From NCBI RefSeq assembly GCF_001999965.1, contig NZ_CP019646.1, positions 2,852,001 to 2,916,000 on the forward strand: a DNA stretch of 64,000 nt, in the 5' to 3' direction. Below are positions 42,107-51,712 of this stretch, in pieces (position 1 is the stretch's first letter; the number at the start of each line of letters is the position of its first letter). The translations under genes and the position numbers were made by a program. This DNA is from Limihaloglobus sulfuriphilus. Its GTDB lineage: Bacteria; Planctomycetota; Phycisphaerae; Sedimentisphaerales; Sedimentisphaeraceae. Below the pieces are notes generated by a model that saw nothing but the letters and a program-made list of their open reading frames with translations, searched no databases and was not told where the DNA came from.

Positions 42107-42625
42107 ATGACACAGTTACTTGACAAAAAACAGATAGACCAGGCCATCAGCCGGCTTGCTGATATGATAATCGAAAGCAGCGGCGATGAAGTTGTCATTC
42201 TGGGCATAAGAGACCGGGGCGAAATACTAAGTGAGCGGCTCTCAAAGATAATCACTTCCAGGGCCGGCAAAACCGCTCTCAGCGGAGCACTTGATATAAC
42301 TCTATACAGAGACGACATTACCGAGCCTTCCGGGGCAATGCGGGCGGTTCAGCCCTCGTACATACCGTGCCCGCTCAACGACAAAGAAATAATACTGGCA
42401 GACGATGTTCTGCATACGGGGCGTTCTTGCAGAGCGGCACTCGACGCGATAGTGGCATACGGGCGGCCCAGACTGATCAAGCTGGCGGTGCTCATAGACC
42501 GCGGCGGACGCGAATACCCGATCCAGGCAGATTATACCGGTGTCAAATTAGAGGTACGCGATGATCAGAAAGTCAGGGTTACACTCGAAGAATACGGAGA
42601 CATCGACCAGGCGGTTTTAGAATAG
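42107..42625 (+). CDS. pyrR: Pyrimidine regulator / uracil phosphoribosyltransferase
   Basis: 172 residues. PRTase fold with the PRPP loop EIILADDVLHTGRSCRAALDAI (about residue 95) and GIRDRGEILSERL near the start. PyrR binds RNA to attenuate pyr transcripts and has weak uracil PRTase activity. It begins two bases after the LptC-like gene, so it is part of that transcript; no PyrR-binding loop was recognised nearby. Confidence 0.92.
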   Translation: MTQLLDKKQIDQAISRLADMIIESSGDEVVILGIRDRGEILSERLSKIITSRAGKTALSGALDITLYRDDITEPSGAMRAVQPSYIPCPLNDKEIILADDVLHTGRSCRAALDAIVAYGRPRLIKLAVLIDRGGREYPIQADYTGVKLEVRDDQKVRVTLEEYGDIDQAVLE

Positions 42626-42703
42626 TTTCAATGGGGGCAAAACGAATAAACAAACCTTACGGCAAGAGTGAGTTAGTTACGGGATTTTATGAGGAAAAAT
42701 CAT

Positions 42704-43663
42704 ATGGAGTCTGAATCAAAAAGCGATTTTGTCTGGACAAGAAAGCACCTTATCGGCCTCAAGGACCTCAGCCGCAGGGAGCTTGAACATATCTTCAGCA
42801 CGGCGGACGCGTTTCGGCCGGTCGGCGGCAACAGAGTAATGAAATTCCCTACGCTGCGGGGCAGACTCGTTGTAAACATGTTCTTCGAGGACAGCACACG
42901 CACAAGAAACAGCTTTGCCCTGGCGGCAAAACGCTTAAGTGCTGATACACTTGACTTTACAAAAAAAGCCAGTGCGGTGAGCAAGGGCGAGACACTTGTC
43001 GATACCGCGAGAAATATTGTCTCGATGGGCGTTGATATGATCGTGATTCGCCACAACGCCGGCGGGGCTCCGCTGCTGCTTTCCAGAGCGGTGGACGTGC
43101 CGATAATAAACGCAGGCGACGGTTTCAACGAGCATCCCACACAGGCACTGCTCGATACATACACAATCCGCGCCCACCGCGGCAGCCTCGACGGGCTAAA
43201 GATCGCCATTGTCGGAGATATAGCACACTCAAGAGTTGCCCGCAGCGACATTTACGCCATGACAAAGCTCGGCGCGGAGGTTACGCTTGTCGGCCCGCCG
43301 ACACTGATGCCGCCAAAAGTATCACAGCTGCCGGTAAAGGTCAGCACAAGCCTTGATGATGTCATAGAAGAGGTGGACGTTATAAACATGCTGAGGATAC
43401 AGTTTGAACGCATGGGCAGCAACCCATTCCCCTCGGTGCGTGAGTATTCGAGGTTTTTCGCACTGACCGTTGACCGGCTGAAAAGAGCAAAACCCGATAT
43501 ACTCGTTATGCACCCGGGCCCGCTCAACCGAGGCGTAGAGATTGAGTCCGAAGTCGCCGACAGCCCAAACAGTGTCATACTCGAGCAGGTCGCACACGGC
43601 ATCACAACAAGAATGGCAGTCATGCTCCTGGTAAGCCAGGCCGCGGCAATGGAGAAAAATTAG
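42704..43663 (+). CDS. pyrB: Aspartate carbamoyltransferase catalytic subunit
   Basis: 319 residues from the ATG at 42704, which has GAGG at a good distance; an in-frame ATG at 42689 would add five residues. Carbamoyl-phosphate site FFEDSTRTRNSF, then HNAGGAPLL, GDGFNEHPTQALLDTYT and MHPGPLNRG. It forms carbamoyl aspartate in pyrimidine synthesis. pyrC, which commonly follows, is not here; a convergent helicase operon is. Confidence 0.95.
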   Translation: MESESKSDFVWTRKHLIGLKDLSRRELEHIFSTADAFRPVGGNRVMKFPTLRGRLVVNMFFEDSTRTRNSFALAAKRLSADTLDFTKKASAVSKGETLVDTARNIVSMGVDMIVIRHNAGGAPLLLSRAVDVPIINAGDGFNEHPTQALLDTYTIRAHRGSLDGLKIAIVGDIAHSRVARSDIYAMTKLGAEVTLVGPPTLMPPKVSQLPVKVSTSLDDVIEEVDVINMLRIQFERMGSNPFPSVREYSRFFALTVDRLKRAKPDILVMHPGPLNRGVEIESEVADSPNSVILEQVAHGITTRMAVMLLVSQAAAMEKN

Positions 43664-43951
43664 ATACTCTTTTGAAAATAATTAAGAGTGAGCAGCCAGG
43701 AATTAGGGGTTTACTGAATAATCTATAACTTTTTCATTCGCAGGTAGGTATTTTATGTCTGTACTGCTATGCTCGAACAAAGATGCCGGACACCCTTGTT
43801 TCATCTTTTCAGAGCCGCAACAGTAATGGAGCGGTTACGCAAAAACACTGTATAACAACAAAACACCAGAATAACCTCCGGCACATATTCAAGAGGCGAT
43901 TAAAAGGATAAGTTCAATGTTAAATATTTATAATTTTTTGTATTAGTGTTT
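43664..43951. other. Intergenic between pyrB and the helicase operon
   Basis: Holds a weak hairpin just after pyrB (ACTCTT/AAGAGT) and, at 43810-43838, one copy of a dispersed repeat. No gene is seen. AT-rich toward the right end. Confidence 0.5.
43810..43838. repeat. Dispersed repeat, copy 1
   Basis: About 27 bases starting AGAGCCGCAACAGTAATGGA and ending GCGGTTA. The other copy at 57237-57263 differs at one base. Confidence 0.7.
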
Positions 43952-45655
43952 TTACTGTAAAAAAGAGTTTGGGTCTTCCCTGTCGGTATCGCGAATTGAA
44001 TAAGTATAACCCTGTTCGCATAAAAATAACTGCCTTTTAAGAGCAAAGTCCTGTTCTATGGTATCGGCGCTTACTAAAGTGAAAAAATGAGCACGGTTAA
44101 GCCCCTGTTTGGGTCTTAAGATTCTGCCGAGTCTTTGGGCTTCTTCCTGTCTTGAGCCGAAAGTCCCAGATATTTGTATAGCCACTGACGCATCAGGTAA
44201 ATCCACCGCGAAATTAGCAATCTTTGAAACTGCAAGGATATGAATCTTGCCCTCTTTAAAATCTGCGAATAGCTTATCACGTTTGTCCTGACTGGTACTG
44301 CCTGTCAAAACAGGAATGTCTAAGTTTTTTGCAATAGACTTGATCTGGTCAAGATACATTGCGATTATCAGGATTTTTTCTTGCTTATATCGCGATATGA
44401 TATTTTTTACTATTTGCTCTTTAAGCGGATTTTCGGAAGCTATACGGAATTTTCTTTTAGAGTCAGCAACTGCGTAAGGCATGCGAATATCCTGTGGTAG
44501 AGGTATCCGTATCTCGGTACAGTCGGCTTTGGCTATCCAGCCCTGCTTCTCAAGAGTTTTCCAGGGGGCATCAGCTTTCTTAGGCCCTATTAATGCGAAG
44601 ACATCATTTTCGCGGCCATCTTCACGAACTAATGTTGCGGTAAGACCCAACCTGCGACGAGCCTGCAGAAATGCCGTAAACTGAAAAACAGGTGCCGGTA
44701 AAAGATGAACTTCATCATAAATAATAAGCCCCCAATTACGCTGGTCAAAAAGTGACATATGCTCAAAATTACTGTCTTTTGTTTTGCGGTATGTCATAAT
44801 CTGGTACGTTGCCAGAGTAATAGGTCGTATCTGTTTCATCTTACCGCTATATTCACCGATTTGTTCTTCGGTAAGGGTGGTTTTGTCAAGCAGTTCGTTT
44901 TTCCACTGCCGTACAGCAGTAACACTGGTTGTAAGAATCAGTGTTGATGATTGCAATCTGGCCATACAAGCTATGCCGACAATGGTCTTGCCGGCACCAC
45001 ATGGCAATACTATAACACCTGAACCGCCACTATTGGAACCGTTGGCATGGAAAGCTCTTACCGAATCATTTTGGTAACTTCGCAGTAGAAAAGCTTCACC
45101 GGCAACCGTAGTGTTGCGAAATTCCATACATAGTTCTTCCCCTTTGGTATAACCAGCTAAATCTTCTGCTGGGAAACCGATCTTAACCAACGCCTGCTTC
45201 AGCTTACCACGGGATATAGACTCAATTCGAAAAGTCAATGGAGATAATCGCTCAGCAAGAAGTGGTAACACAAGATTATTGTGGGATATCTCCTCAGCCA
45301 GCGGCTCTGCGTTAGCTGACAAGATCAGTGTCTCTGAGTCTCTGCGCATAAGTTTGAGTCTGCCATAGCGGGATGCAAAATCCTGGATCTTGACTAATAC
45401 ATGTTCAGGAATCGGATATTTGGAAAATTTATGCAGTGAACCTATAATCTGGTCTGTTTTTACGCCGGCTGCGCAAGCGTTCCAGATTGAAAGCGGTGTT
45501 ATACGATAAGTATGAATATGCTCAGGAGATTTGACCAATTCAGCAAATCGCGCAAGCTCATCTCTGGCCTGCGCATACCTTGGGCTCTCCACTTCCGCAA
45601 GTACCGTGTGATCACCCTGAACTATTAACGGATTCTCCAGATTTACTTTACTCAT
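43952..45655 (-). CDS. XPB-type (ERCC3-like) DNA helicase
   Basis: 567 residues from the ATG at 45655, which overlaps the upstream stop as ATGA; the longer frame lies inside the partner gene. An N-terminal domain (1-165) is followed by helicase half 1: Walker A LPCGAGKTIVGIA (about 217), DEVH box IIYDEVHLLPAP (about 313) and LGLTATLVREDGRE, which contains the RED motif specific to XPB. Half 2 ends with motif VI EEAQRLGRILRPKQG. Bacterial XPB unwinds DNA 3' to 5'; a repair role is suspected. It is AT-richer than its surroundings and paired with a large partner gene. Confidence 0.9.
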   Translation of the reverse strand: MSKVNLENPLIVQGDHTVLAEVESPRYAQARDELARFAELVKSPEHIHTYRITPLSIWNACAAGVKTDQIIGSLHKFSKYPIPEHVLVKIQDFASRYGRLKLMRRDSETLILSANAEPLAEEISHNNLVLPLLAERLSPLTFRIESISRGKLKQALVKIGFPAEDLAGYTKGEELCMEFRNTTVAGEAFLLRSYQNDSVRAFHANGSNSGGSGVIVLPCGAGKTIVGIACMARLQSSTLILTTSVTAVRQWKNELLDKTTLTEEQIGEYSGKMKQIRPITLATYQIMTYRKTKDSNFEHMSLFDQRNWGLIIYDEVHLLPAPVFQFTAFLQARRRLGLTATLVREDGRENDVFALIGPKKADAPWKTLEKQGWIAKADCTEIRIPLPQDIRMPYAVADSKRKFRIASENPLKEQIVKNIISRYKQEKILIIAMYLDQIKSIAKNLDIPVLTGSTSQDKRDKLFADFKEGKIHILAVSKIANFAVDLPDASVAIQISGTFGSRQEEAQRLGRILRPKQGLNRAHFFTLVSADTIEQDFALKRQLFLCEQGYTYSIRDTDREDPNSFLQ

Positions 45656-47439
45656 TGAGGCAGTACATATCCCATTTTCTTCAGGGCACTGCGAAACGCC
45701 CGTTCTTTTTTCTTTGGAACAACCAGCCGGAAACTGCCGGCTGGATAGCAGCACTTGCCCGCATGGCTATCGTGTGCGATAAGTGCAGCGGTAGTTTTAT
45801 CGTTTACTTCAATCAAGATAGCATCTTGAATACCGCAAAATGCAGATAGTTTCTTTTCTATATCACGGAGAAAAATATGTACAGTTTCTGGAATTTCACC
45901 ATCGGTCTTATTCTTTAAGAAAAGTTTCAAATTTTCTATCGAACCGCCGGATTCAATATGTTTTAAGATACGGTTTTTATCAAGTTTCCAGACAAACTCA
46001 CTCTTGGGTTTTGCGAATAACTCGAGCGTACATAAGTCTGCTGCCGGAATTTCACAGTCCTGCACTGATGCAAGTTCGTGATTGCTCAAAACCTTAAACA
46101 ACTTCCGCTGTTGTATTTTAGGTGCCTCATATTTATCGCAAATTCCAAGGCAATATGCACCCAGAGAATTGAGCTTCACATACAATAGACCATCATATCT
46201 CCCGCAAAAGCTTAGGTCATCTACACCCCAGCAATTGCCCATTTCCGGCCATAGGTGGTGCGGCCAGGTGTATGCCACGTCAACCAATCCAAGAGTTGCC
46301 AATGACTCAAAAAGAAAAACTCGCAAAAACTGGCGCTCTAATCCTTCACCAATACCATTGTATCCCAGACTGCCATAATTTTTATCGCAAAAATAAAGAT
46401 TCCACGGGTCACTATGACAGAGATCAAACATCTTACCTGATGCCATTGCAAAACGACACGCATCATTAAAGCCGATCCACTTATTAACAGGCCAATGTTC
46501 CATTGAGTTGCAGAAAACCACTTTTCGATCCGAAACACGGGTCATCTCGCGTTTGCCTTTGCCTGTCTGACCTCGGATATTATTGATCCTGTTCATCTCA
46601 TCAAATGAATCATTCCGCAGGTACCGTAAAAAACCTGTTTTCAGATCACTTGGGGTAATGCCACTAAGCAGTTTTTTACCCGTACGGGTAAAATCTAGTT
46701 TATTGCCATTGACCTTACACCATCCGCACTGTTGAAGAATAACACCCCAGGCGTGTGCACGTACCGCCCCTGCTGATTCATCCCATCGGCGAGCAATTTT
46801 TTCAGGGATATCCAGCTCAAAGTCAGGCAACACTAATGCTGTTGATATCTGACGCACAGATGAATCTGTAGGACGTTTGCTTTTGGCTGCAACCTTGATC
46901 TTTCCTGCCTGAACCATGCTTAACATTTGCCGCAATTCTGTAAAGACCACACTTTCGCCCTCAAAAATGTGGATTGGTCGTTCGGCAGCATCATATTTGT
47001 AAGTCTTCTCGATTGTATCAGCCGTTTTTATTGTTACCTTTTCAGGCTTAGGAAGAAGCTGCCTTAGCGATTCAACAATATCAGGCAGAACACAAATATG
47101 CCGACCATCCTCACTATTAAAAACAAGCAAGTTGAAAGGTGAGATGTCTTTGGATGGCCATGAATAATTCCGTTGCGGGCAAGGGTATCCGTATTTACCC
47201 TTGAAGGTCTTTTTCTGTACTTTGCCCTGACCATACGCAGCCTCTGCCAAAAGTGTCTTTTGCTTATCAGTACACAGGTCAAGTATTTTAGGCAGATCAT
47301 TTTCAAATAATCTTTGAAACTCATTTATCAGGTCTGCTTTGCGGGTGATATTTCTCGACAAATTTAGTTTTCTTGCAATTAACTTAAGATCCTCGCTTCG
47401 CAGCTGTTCAAGAACCGCCTTTGTCTGAATTTTAACCAT
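45652..47439 (-). CDS. Helicase-associated partner of XPB
   Basis: 595 residues. The first 60 residues look like a SAP/winged-helix start (VLEQLRSEDLKLIARKLNLS). Later parts are helical and winged-helix-like (HAWGVILQQCGWCKVNGNKLDFTRTG, FLRVFLFESLATLGLVDVAY). The C-terminal region (LFKVLSNHELASVQDCEIPAADLCTLELFAKP ... IESGGSIENLKLFLKNKT) matches the pattern of the Helicase_C_3 type domain found in proteins next to bacterial XPB, for example the Rv0862c-Rv0861c pair of Mycobacterium. No ATPase motif. It overlaps the helicase gene by four bases, which argues for a complex. It contains about a dozen Cys but no clear zinc motif. Confidence 0.7.
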   Translation of the reverse strand: MVKIQTKAVLEQLRSEDLKLIARKLNLSRNITRKADLINEFQRLFENDLPKILDLCTDKQKTLLAEAAYGQGKVQKKTFKGKYGYPCPQRNYSWPSKDISPFNLLVFNSEDGRHICVLPDIVESLRQLLPKPEKVTIKTADTIEKTYKYDAAERPIHIFEGESVVFTELRQMLSMVQAGKIKVAAKSKRPTDSSVRQISTALVLPDFELDIPEKIARRWDESAGAVRAHAWGVILQQCGWCKVNGNKLDFTRTGKKLLSGITPSDLKTGFLRYLRNDSFDEMNRINNIRGQTGKGKREMTRVSDRKVVFCNSMEHWPVNKWIGFNDACRFAMASGKMFDLCHSDPWNLYFCDKNYGSLGYNGIGEGLERQFLRVFLFESLATLGLVDVAYTWPHHLWPEMGNCWGVDDLSFCGRYDGLLYVKLNSLGAYCLGICDKYEAPKIQQRKLFKVLSNHELASVQDCEIPAADLCTLELFAKPKSEFVWKLDKNRILKHIESGGSIENLKLFLKNKTDGEIPETVHIFLRDIEKKLSAFCGIQDAILIEVNDKTTAALIAHDSHAGKCCYPAGSFRLVVPKKKERAFRSALKKMGYVLPQ

Positions 47440-47536
47440 ATTACATCTCTAAAAACTTATCCTATATGCTTAGCTGATTGCCATTTTCCGTTAATTGCGA
47501 AGTAAAACTCACAAAATACAAAACGAGAAACAGGGT

Positions 47537-47564
47537 AGTATAAAATAACGCTTGTACTTGTCAA
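47537..47564 (-). promoter_or_regulatory. Sigma-70-like promoter of the helicase operon
   Basis: On the minus strand TTGACA (47564-47559), a 16-base spacer and TATACT (47542-47537). The leader would be about 90 bases. Confidence 0.75.
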
Positions 47565-49079: not shown

Positions 49080-49121
49080 CATGTGTAAGTTTAACAGGGA
49101 GTGCACCTTAGCGGTGTTAAC

Positions 49122-49898
49122 ATGAATATACTCCTTACAAATGATGACGGCATATCCGCCAACGGCCTCACCATGCTCTGTGAGCGACTCAGCGAGCTGG
49201 GCAATGTGTTTGTTGCTGCGCCGAGAGAACACATGTCCGCCGCCGGCCACGGGCTGAGCCTGGGGCCGATAGACGTTGAACAGGTAGAGGTCATCCCCGG
49301 CGTTACCGGTTTCAGCATTAACGGCACACCGGCAGACTGCGTCAAGCTGGCGATTCTTGAGCTTGTCGATGAACCGATAGACCTTGTTGTCTCGGGGCTT
49401 AACAACGGCACGAATCTGGGCGTGAATATCTGGTACTCCGGCACGGTAGCCGCGGCCAGAGAGGCCTGTTTTTACGGAATACCCGCGGTGGCTCTCAGTA
49501 CACAAATACATAATCCGGCTAAACTTAAACCCGTCTGCAATCATGCCCTGCACCTGCTCAAAAAGCTCTTGCCCCTTGAAGCGGGGATTTACAACATCAA
49601 TATACCGCATGAACCGGTGCTGGGCATGAAAGTGCTGCCTCAGAGCACGGTTAATTTTCATGAAGCCTATAAGCGGGTTGAAACGGCAAACGGGCTCTAC
49701 TACCAGGTTGTTATGAAAAACGAACAGCCCCAGATGCCCCGCAGCGATGTCGAGGCGTTTGAAGAGGGATATATAACTATAACCCCGCTTACTATAAACC
49801 AGACCAGCAGCGGCGAGATATCAAAACTCGAAAAACGTATAAACACTGTCAAGATTTACCGGCAGGTTAATGTAACTGCTGAAATAGAAATAGAATAG
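49122..49898 (+). CDS. surE: 5'/3'-nucleotidase SurE
   Basis: 258 residues from the ATG at 49122. The metal site D8-D9 in MNILLTNDDGISANGL is diagnostic, with AAPREHMSAAGHGLSL and SGLNNGTNLGVNIWYSGTVAAAREA supplying the other ligands. It removes phosphate from nucleoside monophosphates and is linked to stationary-phase survival. Confidence 0.94.
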   Translation: MNILLTNDDGISANGLTMLCERLSELGNVFVAAPREHMSAAGHGLSLGPIDVEQVEVIPGVTGFSINGTPADCVKLAILELVDEPIDLVVSGLNNGTNLGVNIWYSGTVAAAREACFYGIPAVALSTQIHNPAKLKPVCNHALHLLKKLLPLEAGIYNINIPHEPVLGMKVLPQSTVNFHEAYKRVETANGLYYQVVMKNEQPQMPRSDVEAFEEGYITITPLTINQTSSGEISKLEKRINTVKIYRQVNVTAEIEIE

Positions 49899-50347: not shown

Positions 50348-51712
50348 ATGATGCGAATATCCCTCGAAGAGGTTTTCGAAACCGTCCAGATGACAATGGA
50401 TCAGCATTTCGATATACGAACGACCACCCTCGGCATAAACCTTAAGGACTGCATGAGCCGCAGCCTCCCAGAGGTCAAAAAAAGCGTTTACCAGCGTGTT
50501 GTCCGAATGGGTAAACTGCTCAACACCCACGCCGACGAGCTTGAAGAGAAATACGGAATCCCGATAACCAACCGGCGTATCTCAATCACGCCGGCATCGC
50601 TGCTGCTGGAGCCGCTGCCAAAGACAAAAACTTCGGTAGTAGGCCTTGCCAAAGCGCTCGACAAGGCCGCACGTGATGCGGATATCGATTTTATCGGCGG
50701 TTTTGGAGCACTGATCCAAAAGGGACTGACAAAATCCGATGACAATCTCATCAAATGGCTGCCCGACGCACTCGAACAGACCGAAAGGGTTTGCAGTTTT
50801 CTCAACCTCGGCTCAACGCTTGCCGGCATAAACATGACCGCGGTAGATCGCGTCGGCAGGCTGATAAGAGAAATCGCATCCCGCAGTGAAAACGGCATCG
50901 GCTGCGCCAAGTTCGTGGTATTCGCCAACGCACCGGAGGACAACCCCTTCATGGCGGGCGCTCATCACGGTGTCGGCGAACCGGACTACTCGCTAAACGT
51001 CGGCATCTCCGGCCCCGGCGTAGTCAGGGCGATAGTGGGCAAGAATCCCGCCTGCGACCTTACACAGCTCTCCGAAGTTATAAAACGAACCGTATTCAAG
51101 ATTACCCGCGCAGGCGAGCTTGTCGGCAGGGAGATGGCCCAGCTGATGGGCGTTGAGTTTGGTATCGTTGATATATCCCTGGCCTCGACGACTGCCGTGG
51201 GCGATTCTGTCGCCGAGATTATAGAGGCAATGGGCGTAAGCAGAATGGGACGGCCCGGCTCAACGGCGGCACTGGCACTGCTGATAGACGCAGTGAAAAA
51301 AGGCGGAGCGATGGCCTCGGGCAATGTCGGCGGGCTCAGCGGTACGTTTATCCCCGTCAGCGAGGATATGGGAATGATCAAAGCGGTCAAGACCGGAGCT
51401 CTGAACCTGGAAAAACTCGAAGCCCTCACAAGCGTCTGCTCTGTCGGGCTGGACATGTTCGCGATTCCGGGCGATACGCCGGCTGATGTTATCTCGGCGA
51501 TAATAGCAGACGAACTGGCGATAGGCGTGGCAAACAACAAAACCACCGGCGTACGCGTGATAGTCGCACCCGGCACAAAGGCCGGCGAAGTAATCGATTT
51601 TGGAGGCCTGCTTGGAGCGGCACCAGTGATGAAAGTCAGCAAACAGGGCGCTGCCGATTTCATTAACCGCAAAGGAAGAATTCCAGCACCGATAAAGGCA
51701 CTGAGAAACTGA
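50348..51712 (+). CDS. DUF711/UPF0210 (PFL-like) family protein
   Basis: 454 residues. Begins MMRISLEEVFETVQMTMDQHFDIRTTTLGINLKDC, then NRRISITPASLL, DFIGGFGALIQKGLT, CAKFVVFANAPEDNPFMAGA, GVGEPDYSLNVGISGPGVV and GMIKAVKTGALNLEKLEALTSVCSVGLDM, all typical of the family. The fold is related to pyruvate formate-lyase but lacks a proven activity. Works with the ACT protein upstream in most genomes. Confidence 0.9.
   Translation: MMRISLEEVFETVQMTMDQHFDIRTTTLGINLKDCMSRSLPEVKKSVYQRVVRMGKLLNTHADELEEKYGIPITNRRISITPASLLLEPLPKTKTSVVGLAKALDKAARDADIDFIGGFGALIQKGLTKSDDNLIKWLPDALEQTERVCSFLNLGSTLAGINMTAVDRVGRLIREIASRSENGIGCAKFVVFANAPEDNPFMAGAHHGVGEPDYSLNVGISGPGVVRAIVGKNPACDLTQLSEVIKRTVFKITRAGELVGREMAQLMGVEFGIVDISLASTTAVGDSVAEIIEAMGVSRMGRPGSTAALALLIDAVKKGGAMASGNVGGLSGTFIPVSEDMGMIKAVKTGALNLEKLEALTSVCSVGLDMFAIPGDTPADVISAIIADELAIGVANNKTTGVRVIVAPGTKAGEVIDFGGLLGAAPVMKVSKQGAADFINRKGRIPAPIKALRN

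Follow-up and report, generated by a model that had tools for sequence, protein, structure and literature searches.

A 64,000-nucleotide stretch of Limihaloglobus sulfuriphilus DNA (hereafter the window) carries two adjoining genes that we read, with a probability of roughly 0.7, as a horizontally acquired two-subunit DNA translocase: an XPB helicase and a regulatory subunit apparently built like TFIIH p52/Tfb2. In TFIIH, a human complex of repair and transcription, p52 holds the same motor; judging from its predicted structure, the partner most likely acts on XPB likewise, as a clamp and regulator. An earlier note, made from the sequence only, had described the helicase and its partner; the p52-like predicted fold was missing from it, and the pairing of XPB with what is, by prediction, a p52-like protein is new relative to that account.

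XPB and its partner form a two-gene module

Both genes lie on the reverse strand. The partner gene (45652..47439, 595 aa) is the 5' member of the pair, and its TGA overlaps the ATG of the XPB gene (43952..45655) in an ATGA at 45652..45655. Counted from this in-frame ATG, XPB has 567 aa; the mechanical ORF list begins further 5', at a GTG. The protein scores 853.8 bits against the NF045503 cut-off of 610 and aligns with positions 1-547 of the 548 in the model, making it a full family member. Its GAGKT, DEVH, LVRED and QRLGR motifs are intact, with key residues at 220, 314, 342 and 507, which we take to be Walker A, DEVH, RED and motif VI, respectively. Residues 7-554 match the XPB chain 8ebt_A in a phmmer search of the PDB, and a PF13625 N-terminal domain (E 8.8e-36) occupies residues 10-137 (45245..45628, reverse strand). 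The Mycobacterium tuberculosis XPB is described in excerpts of PMC3353954 as a 3'-5' helicase with DNA-dependent ATPase activity. The earlier description of a separate two-gene module with an XPB helicase is borne out.

The pair is also AT-richer than its neighbours, as had been claimed. GC content is 0.427 for the partner and 0.434 for XPB, against 0.499 (sd 0.046) for the window's ORFs, and GC3 is 0.396 and 0.389, against 0.554 (sd 0.085); the reference is the 40 mechanical ORFs of at least 150 aa in the window, the pair's own frames included. A strong sigma-70-like site, TTGACA-16-TATACT (47537..47564, reverse strand), matches the consensus at 11 of 12 positions and lies 97 nt 5' of the partner ATG. 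Promoter-like sites in the region number 12, compared with 9.6 (sd 3.4) in shuffled sequence, which is chance level, so the pair's own promoter, asserted in the earlier note, is best called plausible. Downstream of XPB is a terminator-like hairpin with a T-rich tail (43863..43884, reverse strand), one of 8 such hairpins in the region, against 4.1 (sd 2.2) in shuffles.

Strands and coordinates agree with the reported convergence on pyrR-pyrB: a pyrR-like phosphoribosyltransferase gene (42107..42625) precedes pyrB (42689..43663), both on the forward strand. The pair occupies the site where pyrC would often be expected, since a pyrC-like gene comes next after pyrB in nine of the ten relatives examined (in one of these nine, a short ORF lies between the two). 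In the exception, genome G048, the pyrC-like gene is about 4 kb from pyrB and divergent. The pyrC of the window's own genome is at C1:2579058-2580332, 315 kb from the pair. We found no tRNA genes in the window and no repeats flanking the pair.

The partner is predicted to adopt the p52 fold

Sequence searches with the partner itself were silent. It has no match in Pfam, including Tfb2 (PF03849), Tfb2_C (PF18307) and PF13625, nor in NCBIfam or PADLOC; searched against PDB sequences it gave nothing credible, and its family profile gave no match there. An AlphaFold2 model built from an alignment of 78 sequences has a mean pLDDT of 92.2 and a pTM of 0.80. When this model was compared with the PDB by Foldseek, ranks 1-16 were all p52/Tfb2 chains, led by 8ebs_D (E 3.7e-8, probability 1.00), ranks 17-37 held 16 XPB and 5 p52 chains, and the first unrelated match had an E of 0.40. 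Chains 8ebt_D, 7o4i_2 and 6trs_A, entry 7zs9 and several XPB chains were identified by molecule name; the remaining chains were assigned to p52 or XPB by entry title and chain letter.

Pairwise superposition with VIA-align gives the same picture. Residues 138-591 of the model align with 8ebs_D over 302 residues (Z 12.8), with an rmsd of 7.6 that is high because the domains are placed differently, and the N-terminal half of p52 (6tru_C) is matched with Z 9.4. The clutch-like domain, residues 442-534 (45838..46116, reverse strand), superposes on the XPB N-terminal domain of 6ro4_A with Z 13.0 and an rmsd of 2.4 over 90 residues. The C-terminal domain, residues 535-595 (45655..45837, reverse strand), weakly resembles the Tfb2 domain that binds Tfb5/p8 (3dom_B: Z 4.7, rmsd 2.7, 55 of 58 residues). 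In this single predicted model, the partner has the p52 fold and domain order, including the clutch fold at 442-534.

More distant relatives point the same way. Of the 78 aligned partner family members, 75 match PF13625 with an E no higher than 0.01; among seven homologues scored against the 34.2-bit cut-off of that model, one was above, five were below and one had no match. Helicase-associated proteins that carry PF13625 align with the partner as remote homologues (hhalign 99.6%; E 1.4e-24 over 515 columns and 2.6e-24 over 368 columns). In a Tfb2 scan of ten relatives and neighbours, three matched under the cut-off and one, L213 3539-5797, passed it (E 9.2e-10, 38.4 bits, cut-off 34.5); this protein and the partner profile can be aligned across 331 columns (hhalign 99.1%, E 1.9e-18). 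A profile of five related bacterial proteins searched against all PDB sequences found p52 chains first (8ebt_D at E 1.9e-4, yeast TFB2 7o4i_2 at 3.7e-4) and then XPB (0.0031). Sequence alone is enough to link remote homologues of the partner with p52. Part of this likeness belongs to the domain that the clutch and XPB share, because in phmmer searches L213 matches XPB N-terminal domains (5.8e-5) ahead of p52 (0.025). The Tfb2_C model had no match above its cut-off in 14 genomes, and matches below it also occur in 9 of 14 control genomes.

The partner family is linked to XPB across phyla

A scan for the partner found 130 relatives, of which 80 were kept, so the XPB fractions that follow are not unbiased. 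Counted by tblastn, since an ORF-based count misses XPBs behind antisense ORFs, XPB lies within 500 nt of the partner homologue at 34 of the 80 loci and within the stretch read at 39. For 23 of the 80 the genome has no XPB (NF045503), so the partner can evidently do without XPB in some hosts, and 21 of these 23 homologues group as one branch. The partner set omits two of the 80 loci, L164 (short) and L187 (broken); the alignment (A4) comprises 77 loci plus the window and also drops L192, which is identical to L189. L124 and L062 (G048) are one and the same contig, and L126 and L174 share one genome.

The homologues from XPB-less genomes, together with a SAP-like stretch in one family member (E 0.0058), would suit a partner that is only a DNA-binding helper beside XPB in repair and forms no p52-like clamp. 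We regard this as unlikely: the linkage to XPB is tight and recurring, and the clutch-like domain has the fold of the XPB N-terminal domain, the docking surface in TFIIH, where, according to excerpts of PMC6422496, the p52 clutch and the XPB N-terminal domain share a common fold and pair with each other.

We prefer an XPB clamped by its partner. In such a complex the clutch-like domain would pair sheet to sheet with the same-fold XPB N-terminal domain, the proposed docking surface, and the partner's C-terminal domain would sit near RecA2. The front part of the partner may tether the motor to DNA or to other proteins. Like p52 in TFIIH, the partner would recruit XPB and set its ATPase, and the gene overlap would favour similar amounts of both proteins. 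The task of the complex would be DNA opening during repair. Because the predicted shape of the partner matches p52, the XPB motor may not act by itself in bacteria; if bacteria do make such a clamp, assays of bacterial XPB that omit the partner are incomplete.

The earlier note had also raised anti-phage action, in which the two proteins would sense or unwind invading DNA and travel on mobile elements. Sporadic spread, clades of mixed phyla and AT-rich composition fit this idea, as does a Gloeocapsopsis pair that is plasmid-borne. Hachiman genes adjoin one plasmid-borne homologue of the partner and Wadjet genes another, neither of them having an XPB in the sequence read, and among 97 neighbours at 22 XPB-less loci, JetA, JetC, DpdE and a type I methylase each match single genes. 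Against it, PADLOC-DB 2.0 matches neither the window's partner nor any of the 78 aligned members, and XPB matches PADLOC models in part only, as any SF2 helicase might. Pfam finds no nuclease or effector domain in the partner, and at the XPB-less loci none of the 25 most frequent of 101 families exceeds 3 of the 97 neighbours, the commonest being RecD-type. On the PADLOC nulls and this neighbour scan, which covered XPB-less loci and has no control set, we rejected defence as the main reading; it is improbable, and repair is the likelier role. In viral sequences the partner scan found one distant locus; 409 phage records match XPB, one of them, an unverified and unannotated record, over more than 80% of the query.

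The pair was probably acquired by horizontal transfer

Among 98 genomes of the same order or closer, 3, counting the window's own, have strong XPB matches and 2 have the partner. Some XPB match at E up to 0.001 is present in 72 of the 98, those that are not strong being partial, weak helicase matches. In four other genomes of the same family neither gene has a strong match. In a tree of 100 XPB rows (91 distinct) plus L093, which leaves out loci with a match under about 450 aa or containing a stop, the window's XPB belongs to an eight-row clade that spans six phyla (SH-aLRT 100). The partner belongs to a four-row clade spanning three phyla, also with an SH-aLRT of 100. Both trees are quick ones; in the partner tree the window and L125 are flagged as deviating in composition, and L126 as having a long branch. 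Because both proteins fall in fully supported mixed-phylum clades, transfer is a better account of the pair's origin than vertical descent.

The conserved position across the class that the earlier note had set against insertion is thus not what these genomes display; in G012 and G048, moreover, the pair's genes are on different contigs from pyrB. Vertical inheritance in the class, with loss in most relatives and pyrC displaced by an unrelated rearrangement, could draw on the related XPB in two other genomes of the order, on the separation of pyrB and pyrC in G048 too and on the presence of XPB in 166 of 392 genomes of the phylum, and we rejected it as improbable on the sporadic distribution and the mixed-phylum clades of both proteins.

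Relation to TFIIH and other XPB systems

The pair resembles the XPB-p52(Tfb2)-p8 part of TFIIH in having an XPB with a PF13625 N-terminal domain and a partner with, by prediction, the p52 domain order and a clutch-like domain. It differs in that the window locus has two genes only and that Pfam Tfb2 models do not match the partner. The XPB family is also shared with a bacterial arrangement, seen in Paenibacillus and at most Planctomycetota loci read, in which XPB is followed downstream by a PF13625 helicase-associated protein, whereas the window's partner is upstream of XPB and belongs to a separate subfamily. At L125 and L126 both kinds of partner flank one XPB, and G048 has both on two contigs; the window genome carries one kind only. 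An intact three-gene operon in the window genome was considered and rejected, as in that genome the third gene of L126 matches nothing beyond the N-terminal region of XPB (E 0.00124); an AlphaFold model of this third gene (pLDDT 40.7) was not used.

The layout had been likened to the actinobacterial XPB pair, of which we take Rv0862c-Rv0861c to be the type. The likeness holds for XPB, for which the five best matches on actinobacterial plasmids show 51-53% identity, and for a C-terminal domain in common with the Tsukamurella partner. It is partial, as that partner, the single actinobacterial one compared, aligns over the C-terminal 115 columns only (hhalign 77%) and the Tsukamurella genes are 3.5 kb apart. 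Archaeal XPB likewise has a dedicated partner, Bax1, described in excerpts of PMC7293015 as a nuclease; in the window's partner, which has a p52-like predicted fold, Pfam detected no nuclease domain (indeed no match at all).

A broader reading, which we hold tentatively and at somewhat less than even odds, is that bacteria and some Asgard archaea have true TFIIH p52 homologues. The XPB-p52 clutch would then predate eukaryotes, and TFIIH would have been built around a minimal XPB-p52 machine that had spread among bacteria. A separate branch would have left XPB to serve another motor, perhaps the adjoining RecD2-like helicase in some Burkholderiaceae. If bacteria do make a clamp of the p52 type for XPB, the published view of bacterial p52, stated in a 2012 paper to be unknown in bacteria, is wrong, and the origin of TFIIH becomes testable with a two-protein system expressible in Escherichia coli.

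The Asgard side involves an archaeal 'TFIIH-like' family, fam18955, which excerpts of PMC9258230 call RAD25-like and place beside RFC small subunit genes in Asgard genomes. Two Thorarchaeota proteins, L215 and L216, resemble that arrangement, and from their sequences we tentatively read them as fam18955 and the neighbouring gene as RFC. Searched against the PDB, L215 finds XPB chains at 0.03 and no p52. Both proteins carry PF13625, and one of them has a Tfb2 match under the cut-off.

A two-gene XPB module

The XPB helicase gene of the window (43952-45655, minus strand, 567 aa) is preceded by the gene for its partner, B (45652-47439, minus strand, 595 aa), and the two overlap by the ATGA common to both. 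Both genes are AT-rich, with a GC3 of 0.396 for B and 0.389 for XPB, compared to a window ORF mean of 0.554 (sd 0.085, 40 ORFs). The overlapping AT-rich module described in the earlier note is real. Its proposed sigma-70 promoter fares less clearly: a sigma-70-like site with 11/12 matches lies 97 nt upstream of B, in a region that shows no excess of such sites. The parallel drawn with the actinobacterial XPB pair holds only in part.

The helicase scores 853.8 bits against NCBIfam NF045503 (cut-off 610), has intact motifs and matches the XPB chain 8ebt_A (PDB) over residues 7-554. It contains PF13625 at residues 10-137 and the ERCC3/RAD25 C-terminal helicase domain. B by itself has no match in Pfam, NCBIfam or PADLOC. 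On the opposite strand, a PEP-CTERM protein gene (PF07589, 48001-48660) flanks the pair and adjoins an AT-rich gap; beyond the pair lie SurE (49101-49898) and DUF711 (50348-51712) genes, both ordinary neighbours.

B resembles the TFIIH subunit p52

An AlphaFold2 model of B, built from an alignment of 78, has a mean pLDDT of 92.2 and a pTM of 0.80. In a Foldseek search of the PDB, ranks 1-16 are chains of p52/Tfb2, the TFIIH subunit holding XPB (best E 3.7e-8). Ranks 17-37 comprise 16 XPB and 5 p52 chains, and the first unrelated chain appears at E 0.40. The molecule is named for 8ebt_D, 7o4i_2, 6trs_A, entry 7zs9 and several XPB chains; the others were identified by entry title and chain letter. 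With VIA-align, the model matches 8ebs_D over 302 residues (Z 12.8, rmsd 7.6) and the p52 N-terminal half, 6tru_C, over 153 (Z 9.4, rmsd 3.9). The XPB N-terminal domain aligns to model residues 443-534 (Z 13.0, rmsd 2.4, 90 residues), and the Tfb2 C-terminal domain aligns over 55 of its 58 residues (Z 4.7). The high overall rmsd to p52 may reflect domain placement; p52 is a flexible protein according to excerpts of PMC7708078. According to the same excerpts, a significant structural relative was found for neither the N-terminal nor the middle domain of p52, so a chance match to the whole p52 domain order seems less likely.

Sequence profiles provide a bridge to p52. PF13625, also present at the XPB N-terminus, matches 75 of the 78 aligned B members (E up to 0.01). 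The B profile aligns with downstream "helicase-associated" proteins of other XPB operons (99.6%, 515 columns, E 1.4e-24; 368 columns, E 2.6e-24 in a second profile alignment) and with a Chloroflexi protein (locus L213, 3539-5797; 99.1%, 331 columns, E 1.9e-18) that passes Pfam Tfb2 (E 9.2e-10, 38.4 bits, cut-off 34.5). When a profile of five such L213-type bacterial proteins, excluding B, was compared with all PDB sequences, p52 ranked first (8ebt_D, E 1.9e-4; yeast TFB2, 3.7e-4), followed by XPB (0.0031). Some evidence runs counter to this: by phmmer the L213 protein is closer to XPB (5.8e-5) than to p52 (0.025), and the Thorarchaeota protein L215 matches only XPB in the PDB. The Tfb2 model itself passes in 1 of 14 genomes, matches below cut-off in six control genomes, and does not match window B. 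Because the bridge supports the relationship but Tfb2 misses window B, we consider B p52-like and probably homologous to p52, and do not assign it to the Tfb2 family.

Two Asgard genomes (Thorarchaeota; L150, L158, L215, L216) encode the B family and, at a separate place, a second PF13625 protein, with a Tfb2 match below threshold in one genome. L215 and L216 are likely the Asgard "TFIIH-like" genes that adjoin RFC in the excerpt of PMC9258230.

The p52 clutch of TFIIH (306-399) shares its fold with the XPB N-terminal domain (PMC6422496, in excerpt) and pairs with it as a pseudo-symmetric dimer (excerpts of PMC6422496 and PMC13024598). The model suggests that these same two folds are encoded in the window by two overlapping genes. 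Because this arrangement would supply both pairing folds, a B-XPB heterodimer is expected by analogy with TFIIH, in which B would recruit the XPB motor and regulate it. Since Mtb XPB combines DNA-dependent ATPase with 3'-5' helicase activity, repair would by analogy be the likeliest pathway; the excerpt reporting these activities (PMC3353954) terms the role of XPB in bacteria poorly understood. A bacterial p52-like protein is not named in the titles and abstract openings of the literature searched, which lacked most subscription journals and bioRxiv, and the p52-like partner of XPB is the finding of interest here.

Position and ancestry of the pair

Of 10 relatives, 9 have a pyrC-like gene next after pyrB, in one case past a short ORF; in the tenth, G048 of the same order, pyrC is divergent and ~4 kb away. 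In the window genome the distance is 315 kb, confirming that the pair sits in an unusual place, where pyrC would often be expected. The relocated pyrC product is amidohydrolase/dihydroorotase-like (Pfam). Neither a tRNA gene nor a flanking repeat was found marking the B-XPB site. In G048 and another genome of the order, G012, XPB and pyrB are on different contigs. A Cas12a/Cpf1-like gene (Pfam REC1, REC2, PI-like, RuvC) adjoins the relocated pyrC outside the window (G000 C1 ~2580714-2584000; L217 5714-9001) and reaches the end of the stretch read.

In a set of 98 genomes from the same order or closer (the window genome counted), XPB has strong matches in 3 and B occurs in 2; at E 0.001 the XPB tally is 72, through weaker, partial helicase matches. 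The four other genomes of the family have no strong match to either protein, two of them single contigs of 98-99% completeness. Across the phylum, NF045503 matches 166 of 392 sampled genomes at E 1e-60. Among the matches listed, all except the own genome belong to another class, and G012 and G048 are absent.

We built quick trees of XPB (92 rows, IQ-TREE) and B (79 rows), both drawn midpoint-rooted. The XPB tree, proposed earlier as a check, places window XPB in a clade of 8 rows (SH-aLRT 100) spanning six phyla: Planctomycetota (window, G012), Fermentibacterota, Acidobacteriota, Lentisphaerota, Myxococcota and Pseudomonadota. Window B belongs to a clade of 4 (SH-aLRT 100) whose other rows are G048, L125 (Fermentibacterota) and L126 (Acidobacteriota); here composition is flagged as unlike in the window and L125 rows, and L126 has a long branch. 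G048, with XPB fragments only, is absent from the XPB tree. Because L125 and L126 join the window in both trees, B and XPB appear to have travelled together. Misbinning is possible for several rows, which come from metagenome bins; the window genome is a single contig. Against simple co-transfer, XPB of L193, L199 and L200 is 69% identical to window XPB but B only ~30%, which points either to partner exchange or to strongly unequal rates of evolution.

Operon types and B homologues

Among the 27 Planctomycetota loci L095-L121, 17 had an XPB retained by the ORF caller. Sixteen of these carry, downstream of XPB and on its strand, a gene of 568-716 aa, and 13 such genes were included in our set of downstream helicase-associated proteins; in the remaining one, L095, the gene after XPB is B itself. 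The downstream type also follows XPB in G012, L125 (cut by the contig end) and L126, the latter two with B upstream of XPB. G048 has such a gene on one contig, and B and the start of XPB on another. The window genome lacks a gene of this type: searched as a whole with the L126 gene, it gives a match only to XPB's own N-terminal region. Four Chloroflexota clusters (L129, L130, L132, L141), larger and in part cut, contain XPB, B, a SWIM-zinc-finger/PF13625 protein and a further PF13625 protein.

A scan of genome contigs found 130 B relatives, and the best 80 loci were kept. XPB lies within the stretch read in 39 (tblastn), within 500 nt in 34 of these, ordered B-XPB in 26, XPB-B in 6 and on opposite strands in 2. 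Among the remaining 41, NF045503 finds XPB elsewhere in the genome for 18 and none for 23, in genomes of unstated completeness. These 23 rows cluster strongly on the B tree (3 changes, against a shuffled value of 20.1), and a single branch (support 93) holds 21 of them; a genuine subfamily therefore seems a better reading than assembly gaps.

PADLOC was run on 97 genes neighbouring 22 XPB-less loci (the remaining one is a duplicate), and on these loci alone. Among the 25 most frequent of 101 families, none matched more than 3 neighbours; JetA, JetC, DpdE and a type I methylase matched one each. The commonest families, RecD-type and others, may reflect the same three helicases. In XPB-less Burkholderiaceae genomes (L148, L167, L171, L172), a common helicase gene adjoins the B homologue; Pfam identifies it as RecD2-like in both loci tested. 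On a Cupriavidus plasmid a B homologue neighbours Wadjet genes, and on a Polaromonas plasmid one neighbours Hachiman genes; the stretch read contains no XPB in either case. In a Xenococcaceae locus (L137), XPB is split over two frames and followed by two tandem B copies.
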